The notes below the pieces were generated by a model that did no database searches, was not told the DNA's origin, and worked only from the letters and a program-made list of their open reading frames with translations. From Paramacrobiotus metropolitanus (Eukaryota > Tardigrada > Eutardigrada > Parachela > Macrobiotidae): DNA of 64,000 bases. A program made the translations under genes and the position numbers. The stretch's first letter is position 1. Each line of letters begins with the position of its first letter. This document shows positions 29,645 through 32,039 of the stretch, one piece after another. Where the stretch lies: assembly GCF_019649055.1 (NCBI RefSeq), contig NW_026570222.1, positions 1,240,001-1,304,000 of the forward strand, given 5' to 3'.

Positions 29645-29653
29645 ATAAAGAAA
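29645..29653. repeat. Left 9-bp target-site duplication
   Basis: ATAAAGAAA directly abuts the left terminal repeat. The same 9 bases follow the right terminal repeat at 32031-32039. Confidence 0.88.
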
Positions 29654-29720
29654 CGAAATGGCTACGCGCGAGAGCATCTCGCGCTATGAGTTTTGGCTAC
29701 GCGCGAGAGTTTTCGGGCGG
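29654..29720 (+). repeat. Left terminal inverted repeat
   Basis: Begins CGAAATGGCTACGCGCGAG. It contains two copies of GGCTACGCGCGAGAG (29660-29674 and 29695-29709) separated by a CGCGCTATGAGTTTT segment. The whole repeat matches the reverse complement of 31962-32030 with a few changes. Confidence 0.92.
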
Positions 29721-29878
29721 AACGAAATTGACAAGGTTGTCATGTCATGACAACCTGTAAATGCTGTAGGAGTCACCTTCGTACACGAAAGTAATTATTA
29801 TAAAGTAAGTATCATACTATCGAACCGGCATCTCGCACATTGCGCTGACCGGTGTTTCTGTAATAATTAGCCCACACA

Positions 29879-30343
29879 ATGGCACTAGTAATTAAGATAG
29901 GCGACAGATTCGAATCCTACGCGGCGGCGTTACGTGCAGTCGAAGTATGGAGCGAATCCACTCATCAGGTCTTCATAAATCCCGGTGGCAATGCAAAGAC
30001 TTCGAAAACGCATCCACTGCACGACACCTTCCCGTACAGTTCAGTGAAACTGGCAAGCAAGAAAGCCGGCGTGTATCGTCCTCATCGGCGAGGCTCACTT
30101 TCGACGAAAAAGTCTATCACCACCACTCTGAAGAGCGACTGTCAAGCAGCTATCCGTCTGAAACTGGGTCAACGGAATGTTGGAAGTCATCCACGTGCCG
30201 ACTGCAGAAGACCACAATCACGAGGTGTCGCAGATTCGCAGGCGATAGCACAGCACTTCCCGGAAAGGAGACGGCTGTCCGACACGGAGGAGAAGACCGT
30301 GGAGCAGCCGCGTGCCACCGAGGATTATTGCGAGCACTGTTAA
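29879..30343 (+). pseudogene. MULE N-terminal zinc-binding (FAR1/ZSWIM3-like) domain, frameshifted
   Basis: The frame starts MALVIKIGDRFESYAAALRA and carries FPYSSVKLASKKAGVYRP and SDCQAAIRLKLGQ, typical of the N-terminal domain of ZSWIM3-like/MULE proteins. After about residue 100 the homologous reading switches frame: the expected EVIHVPTAEDHNHEVSQ continuation (HNHE ligands) is in another frame and soon hits a stop. The first zinc-ligand position appears to be Ser rather than Cys (VKLASKK). Degenerate copy, not a working protein. Confidence 0.7.
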
Positions 30344-31136
30344 CGCTTCACGTCGGTCGAGCGGGACAGCCGGCACTGTCATCACGAAAGACATTTTGAA
30401 CCGGGGGACGAAAATACGCATGGAAAAGAGGCAAGGGCGGGAGGAGCACGAAATTCTCACGGAATTTCTGCGGCAAAACAGGCAAAGAGATGCGACCGGC
30501 ACTTATGATGTAGTTGTGGCGGAAGACGGAATAGATGCGTTGCGCATCGTTTTCGTTCAGACCACTACCATGAAGCAAACGTTCTCTCGCAAACGTTTTC
30601 TCGCCACCGAGTTAGCTAAATTCGGAGCGGTTGAGTTCAAAACACACATAGTAGCTCTGCAGCAACACCTTGATATAGTGCGAAGTGAAGCTGTGCCGTT
30701 AATTAGTCATCCTGACCTGCTGGCTAAGGTATCGGTACCTGAAACAACTTTAAAGCAGCCGGAAATCCCTGAAGCCGCAGCGGAAGGCGATTTGCCAAAT
30801 CTAAAACCTCCTGCCGCAGAAAACTTCGTCGCTCCTGATTTTTCTGCGTTCAGAGTCAGACCTCGCGGAACCATTAAACCCAAAGGACGGCCGTCGGAAG
30901 GAAGGCGCCATCAGCGGTTCAATCAGACAGCCGTGACGTCTTCACAGCCAATTCAAGCCACGCCCCAGCCAGCCGACACACCGGTTGCCGCTGTTTCGAA
31001 CAGTCCCTCGGCAACAAGGAACGAAATGGGCATGCCGCGGCGGAAGTCGGCCAGGATATCCCGCAGTCCACCGCGTCCGGGAGAAACACCCGCTATGCGT
31101 GCGGCTCGGATACTTAAGACACATGCGAATTTTTAG
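30312..31136 (+). pseudogene. MULE middle region with internal deletion of the transposase core
   Basis: A 274-residue open frame. Its first ~95 residues (ending DALRIVFVQTTTMKQTF) look like the region just before the RNase-H-like DDE core of ZSWIM3/MULE transposases. The text then jumps to a low-complexity Pro/Ser/Arg linker with RPRGTIKPKGRP, a motif usually found after the SWIM zinc finger. Several hundred residues including the catalytic acids seem to be missing, so an internal deletion is inferred. The frame could be transcribed but should not encode an active transposase. Confidence 0.6.
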
Positions 31137-31169
31137 AATGAAGTCGTACACCGATTTGCGGAAGAATTA

Positions 31170-31691
31170 GTGGTGCTTCGCGAGGACATCAACAATCTGA
31201 AAACGTTCGGCTCGGATTTGGAGCTGAGATTACTCAACGCAGGAGTTTATCTGCTACGCAGTGCATTTCGTCAAAGAGGCTGGCTAGAACTTCCTGCAGA
31301 GTTGGCTCTGTGCCAGCATAACGACCAGTGTTACGCTAGGATTCGTTTTCATGTCCGCATGCATGGAGGTATCATCATACAGCCGCTGTACAATGGTGAC
31401 AGTCATTATGTTTGCGCCTTCTTTAATTCTCAAAACCCTGGCGTGGTGCGAATATACTGCTCCACCGGTCAAATGCCCACCGATGCTTTGAAATTGCAAC
31501 TCAACTTCCTGTTCTCTTATCCCGACACCAAAGGCCAGGTTGCCATCGAATATGTCCCTGTGTATGCCCAGTCTCCCGGCAGTAACAACTGCTTGGTATA
31601 CGCTTTTGCGTATGCGTGTGACCATAGAGCGATAAACAGATCCAGAGCGCAAATTACGCCCGGGGTGAGGATTTCCGACAGTGGTTCTTAG
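31170..31691 (+). pseudogene. MULE C-terminal Ulp1/C48-like domain, frameshifted at the end
   Basis: The frame encodes GGIIIQPLYNGDSHYVCAFF, VRIYCST and IEYVPVYAQSPGSNNCLVYA, the usual order of the His, Asp and Cys blocks of Ulp1-like cysteine-protease domains. His (DSHYVC) and Cys (NNCLVY) are present; the usual Asp in the IYDS-type block is replaced by Cys (IYCS). Near 31640 the homologous continuation (NYARGEDFRQWFLDII) moves to another frame, as shown by comparison with the fragment at 13.9-14.08 kb. This suggests both loss of catalysis and a late frameshift. Confidence 0.7.
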
Positions 31692-31961
31692 ATATAATAT
31701 AAACAGGAGCACTGACACCTCCTCCTCGAGTACAGGGAAGAAACGCCTGAAGGAAAACTTCTGTGACCAAAAATAACGCTGTAGTAACGGCAGCTGATGT
31801 ACTGCCCATAATTCGCCGGCTGGGAAAGCCTACCGGTTTCCGAACGACTGCGGTGTGACTGACTTGATGCAAATTGACTGATGCGACAATTATAATGCAC
31901 TATATAAACAACTCCAGAGCTGAAATTATGTCGAAATGTTTTGATTATATTCATAAATAGT

Positions 31962-32030
31962 GGCGCCGAAAAACTCTCGCGCGTAGCCAAAACTCATAGC
32001 GCGGGAGTATTCTCGCGCGTAGACATGACG
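31962..32030 (-). repeat. Right terminal inverted repeat
   Basis: Read on the minus strand it starts CGTCATGTCTACGCGCGAG, then CGCGCTATGAGTTTTGG and a second CTACGCGCGAGAG, mirroring the left end. The inner copy (31974-31988) is identical to the left motif; the outer copy differs slightly. Confidence 0.92.
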
Positions 32031-32039
32031 ATAAAGAAA
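32031..32039. repeat. Right 9-bp target-site duplication
   Basis: ATAAAGAAA directly follows the right terminal repeat and is identical to 29645-29653. Confidence 0.88.

Follow-up and report, generated by a model that had tools for sequence, protein, structure and literature searches.

The window analysed here, a stretch of 64,000 nucleotides of the Paramacrobiotus metropolitanus genome, carries a Mutator-like element (MULE) bounded by terminal inverted repeats (TIRs) at positions 29654-32030, 2377 bp lying between perfect 9-bp duplications (Table 1). The arms of the repeats at 29677-29719 and 31964-32006 are 93% complementary and outer pairs extend each end to approximately 67 bp, which is the length claimed for them in the preliminary description made from the sequence of the window; the coordinates that it gave for the element and the exact 9-bp duplication that it reported at both ends were likewise correct. 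Each end is built of tandem units approximately 35 bp apart (mostly 35 bp), and a motif scan of 16 copies found between one and four units per end. The TIRs and a 9-bp duplication (class range 8-11 bp, mostly 9 bp), together with a DDE transposase of MULE type in longer copies whose ends are the same, place the element in the MULE superfamily. A search of the window against Rfam returned no match. Thrombospondin type 1/spondin-like, golgin A5 and NFACT domains are also encoded in the window, and on their strength the host was taken for an animal. Searches for SL1, nematode cuticle collagen and COX1 as host markers gave no match; no conclusion is drawn from them, those for SL1 and the collagen having had no positive control.

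Table 1. Features of the element in the window. C2 is the window copy; C6, C7, C19 and C181 are other copies in the genome.
Feature	Position	Strand	Basis or comparison
Left target-site duplication ATAAAGAAA	29645-29653	.	Sequence read, copy comparison
5' terminal inverted repeat of two units spaced by 35 bp	29654-29720	+	Genome matches of TIR
FAR1-like N-terminal region in two frames, corresponding to C19 residues 5-239	29888-30590	+	tblastn with C19 protein
TAG stop, also present in C6 at this position; stretch out of frame relative to C181 in both	30246-30248	+	
Deletion junction with 14-bp near-duplicate (filler); DDE core and SWIM missing	30575-30602	+	Common to C2, C6 and C7
Linker region	30603-31133	+	C19 protein comparison
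Ulp1-like domain; His, Gln and Cys retained, Cys at acid position	31137-31622	+	
C-terminal end of Ulp1-like region, other frame	31634-31855	+	Differs from C6 by 1 bp near 31625
3' terminal inverted repeat, two units	31964-32030	-	Repeat comparison
Right target-site duplication ATAAAGAAA	32031-32039	.	Sequence read, copy comparison

The coding region of the element is broken, its frames being interrupted as had been described. In a tblastn comparison with the predicted protein of C19, a longer relative, the window matched residues 5-239 (in two frames), 636-982 and 987-1060, with nothing found for residues 240-635, which represent the DDE core and SWIM. The missing counterpart agrees with the earlier view of a degenerate copy lacking a DDE core and, because the core is absent, we classed the element as a non-autonomous derivative. 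When the window frames alone were searched against Pfam there was no FAR1, MULE or Peptidase_C48 match at E values up to 1, and the domain identities given here come by way of relatives.

Searching the 170-Mb assembly (533 contigs) with the 67-base TIR gave at least 61 matches including that of the window itself; overlapping units enter this figure separately, and the candidates scored for it numbered 40 of 94. The copies anticipated from the window do exist, and the longer relatives C19 and C181 are among them. Target-site duplications were compared in the 16 copies that could be cut out with both ends, a set from which the other places with TIR matches were left out and C7 and C30, each with one end found, were excluded. 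Duplications of exactly 9 bp were present in 10 of the 16 (C2, C181, C107, C55, C48, C24, C19, C128, C50b and C203) and are composed nearly wholly of A and T. That of C148 becomes exact once its 3' end is shifted by one base, while the remaining copies have one (C31, C1), two (C38), three (C6) or eight (C56) mismatches. As a control, left flanks were paired with right flanks taken from other copies, which gave no exact duplication in 240 pairs and six with at most one mismatch. Two of the copies with exact duplications, C50b (L041 269-1011, 743 bp) and C203 (L042 169-1087, 919 bp), are short derivatives with the ends of the family. In viral contigs there were 11 pattern matches, none of which was a relative.

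The longer copies C181 (3835 bp) and C19 (3881 bp) have the ends of the window copy, exact duplications and MULE domains above the Pfam cut-off (PF10551). GT-AG introns can be placed at two matching positions in both, and in the resulting gene models C19 would run for 1060 codons with no stop, with the predicted domain order FAR1-like, DDE/MULE, SWIM, linker and Ulp1-like. Its core contains the motifs FLDSTYR, FVDRD, CAFH and NNTTNRIE, accompanied by a SWIM-type finger and the Ulp1-like end. The reading frame of C181 has breaks and its N-terminal region scores 27.1 bits against Pfam FAR1, just below the cut-off of 28.1. A copy from another clade, C50, has an interruption between its two open frames and aligns to C19 residues 11-1056 as one block in one frame at 30% identity. 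We infer from these copies that the longer members of the family encode a FAR1-like region, a DDE core, SWIM, a linker and a Ulp1-like domain in one predicted protein. The occurrence of the FAR1-like, MULE, SWIM and Ulp1-like parts in this order supports the preliminary proposal that the family couples a MULE transposase with a Ulp1-type part, whose protease fold is putative. Gene capture is known for MULEs (PMC13317346) and the window copy could conceivably be a set of TIRs around host gene fragments of the Pack-MULE type, however C19 and C50, from different clades, have an identical order of parts alongside the transposase; we give this origin almost no weight, host-gene capture being ruled out by the colinear longer copies. 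At a further locus (C68, L035 4599-5639) an open frame matching PF03121, a herpes UL52-type primase, just above the cut-off follows a MULE transposase frame of the same strand, approximately 1 kb downstream of it, and could represent either cargo or a primase gene of the host.

The identity of the Ulp1-like domain was approached with Pfam, profile and PDB searches. The long frames of C181, C19, C50 and C106 had no match to Pfam C48 at E 0.1. Queries restricted to the domain returned PF02902 as the sole family for C106 and C51, below the cut-off (E 0.023 and 0.034), and no Pfam match for C54. A C48 domain above the Pfam cut-off is present at a second group of loci (C41, C149 and C1), and comparing the profile of the window's group with that of this above-cut-off group gave 91.7% (E 7.8e-7) with the His, acid position, Gln and Cys aligned, whereas 12 controls (10 column shuffles, one reversal and one unrelated alignment) gave 0.1-2.3%. 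This supports homology of the predicted window domain with Ulp1/Peptidase_C48, an assignment made because of the profile comparison and not of Pfam matches to the window. Searches of the PDB with alignment A1 of the first group and with C106 found no C48 relative; the same search with the second group found SENP2 (E 0.0016). Four of the eight C48 clusters sit 4.9-8.1 kb downstream of a MULE match on the same strand. The loci of this second MULE family (L037 with C41, L038 with C149, L039 and L053 with C1) are four in number, each with a Pfam-level C48 domain at that spacing and on that strand, and the domains at the C41, C149 and C1 loci have His, Asp, Gln and Cys all present.

The deletion junction of the window copy is found at other places in the genome. 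A junction search gave seven matches, of which C2, C6 and C7 have the full junction and the other four cover one side, and the whole 261-base junction stretch is matched at C6 (99%) and C7 (96%). The window copy and C6 have the TAG stop and the frame break in common, with 51 differences between them over 2376 aligned bases; over 620 codons the pN/pS between them is 0.98 (9 synonymous and 28 non-synonymous changes), and there is no sign of constraint since the two split. The window copy has both ends, the duplication and the deletion, and the scar is common to three loci. As the scar occurs at three loci and the stop and frame break at two of them, we conclude that the form which moved was already deleted and coding-dead, most simply by mobilisation in trans. 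Movement after loss of the transposase had been suggested for this element from its clean ends, and the presence of the scar in C2, C6 and C7 at separate loci supports that suggestion.

We therefore consider the element to be a non-autonomous derivative, formed by deletion, of a MULE family with a transposase-Ulp1 protein predicted in its longer members, and to have been moved by the transposase of a relative, with a probability of roughly 0.93. An ancestral copy would have lost the DDE core and SWIM in a single event that left a short filler behind, the kind of trace that interrupted gap repair may leave. Both TIRs would have been retained, so that excision and reinsertion of the deleted form by the transposase of a longer relative sharing these TIRs would still have been possible, presumably giving the 9-bp duplication. 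Against this reading stand the gene models, which are inferred, the FAR1 score of C181 and the state of the scar-bearing copies, among which the window copy is the only one with perfect ends: C6 has mismatches at 3 of the 9 positions of its duplication and C7 is without a 3' end. The lack of a clean duplication at C6 and the truncation of C7 would also be expected had the scar spread by segmental duplication or by gene conversion, which is conceivable among copies, rather than by transposition of the deleted form. However the ends of the window copy are perfect, its 800-base right flank has itself as its sole match in the assembly, so that no segmental duplication is seen on the right side, and the flanks adjoining C6 are unlike those of the window; we regard such a spread as very improbable.

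A further possibility is that the deletion derivative has been retained as a FAR1-Ulp1 fusion gene that regulates the family. The deletion in C6 puts both halves in one frame, of 501 codons after one stop, and C198 from another clade has an open 268-codon frame that joins an N-terminal piece to Ulp1; its changes relative to C106 are 8 synonymous and 8 non-synonymous (pN/pS 0.29). The stop, the frame break and the ratio of 0.98 common to the window copy and C6 are difficult to reconcile with a retained gene, and the deletions differ in other derivatives, C24 and C107 keeping parts of the transposase core and having no Ulp1. Selection to retain FAR1 together with Ulp1 was set aside on account of these two copies and of a bias in the count that had pointed to it, and a fusion gene seems if anything slightly less probable than duplication or conversion. 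Ulp1 lies downstream within 3.5 kb in 34 of 67 FAR1 clusters, with a MULE match between in two of the 34, a count that is biased because these two pieces were themselves the queries. C198 (L036 2951-3754) is a second, independent form without the core, and its Ulp1-like domain has an Asp at the acid position. The same locus has at 1064-1966 on the minus strand an open frame which we take to resemble a Harbinger-type nuclease.

Classical Ulp1 catalysis depends on His, Asp and Cys together with a Gln. The His, the Cys and the oxyanion Gln are invariant in all 13 rows of alignment A1; in C6b (L051), which lies outside it, Asn replaces the His. At the acid position 11 of the 13 copies examined in the window's clade have a Cys (C2, C181, C19, C6, C30, C128, C55, C1, C56, C7b and C6b) and the other two, C148 and C48, are frame-broken there. 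The classical catalytic acid (Asp or Asn), a mark of an active C48 protease, is absent from the window copy. In other clades of the first group the residue is Asp in eight cases (C106, C51 twice, C198, C70, C97, C55b and C117), Asn in four (C54, C37, C76 and C173) and Cys in C50, with C66, C14 and C35 unreadable, and in the second group it is Asp in five of five (C41, C149, C1 twice and C13). Six rows of the window's clade group together in a tree with support of 100/99; of the 18 inner branches of this tree 8 have good support, and it contains some long rows. An Asp in a PTD motif eight residues on was considered as a compensating acid and rejected, since C97 carries both this Asp and the normal acid.

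For the Ulp1-like domain pN/pS was 0.19 between C6 and C30 (p 2.7e-6), and 0.25 for C30-C128, 0.30 for C30-C19, 0.34 for C128-C19 and 0.22 for C181-C19, the latter four values being rough because synonymous sites are near saturation. The C181-C19 ratio can be compared with those of the DDE core (0.22) and the FAR1 region (0.24) in the same pair. These ratios show purifying selection on the predicted domain across lineages despite the Cys at its acid position. The Ulp1-like domain most likely would act on modifications of the SUMO or ubiquitin type, carried by the transposase or by host factors for silencing or repair. We tentatively suggest, at a little less than even odds, that in the window's clade it serves transposition as a non-classical module within the transposase, either a SUMO/ubiquitin binder or a Cys-His dyad enzyme.

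The preliminary description had noted that fusions of this type are known from plants and had hinted that they are little described in animals. The second part was put too strongly, as Mutator transposons of hydra and lancelet that encode Ulp1, as does the present family, are already in print (Bao et al. 2010, PMC2836005), and the animal MULE-Ulp1 kind is thus already known. Among the literature matches listed, with subscription journals mostly outside the scope, there was no animal case beyond these two. The clade that lacks the catalytic acid and is still constrained may be a variant, the hydra and lancelet elements being compared here by their description alone. Ginger1 likewise has a C-terminal Ulp1 (or OTU) on an animal transposase (PMC2836005), however its core is described as Gypsy-integrase-like whereas that of the present family is of the MULE/ZSWIM type. 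Other animal MULE groups such as Phantom (Dupeyron et al. 2019, PMC6446971) also have TIRs, 8-10 bp duplications and in some cases SWIM; in the main text of that paper none of the terms ulp, protease and peptidase is used, whereas the present family has a Ulp1-like part.

MULE and Ulp1 are also described together in plants, in KIU/Kaonashi and Vandal elements and in melon, rice and grapevine (PMC13317346, PMC2528002). In plants, non-TIR MULEs are described as having three genes, KIU among them (PMC13317346), and the Ulp1 region of grapevine MULE families lies in either orientation relative to the transposase (PMC2528002), whereas in C19 and C50 the Ulp1-like domain is predicted to be the C-terminus of the transposase frame itself. 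KIU-carrying Vandals of Arabidopsis have been linked to hypomethylation of their relatives (PMC13317346), and Bao et al. suggested for Ulp1-type domains a function in the ubiquitin pathway while transposition takes place (PMC2836005).

One genome here holds predicted transposase-Ulp1 fusions in several clades, one copy that appears uninterrupted in its inferred gene model and many deletion derivatives. With such a set of copies the published idea of a part for Ulp1 in transposition (PMC2836005) can be put to the test, and the clade that lacks the acid could tell a protease role from a binding role.
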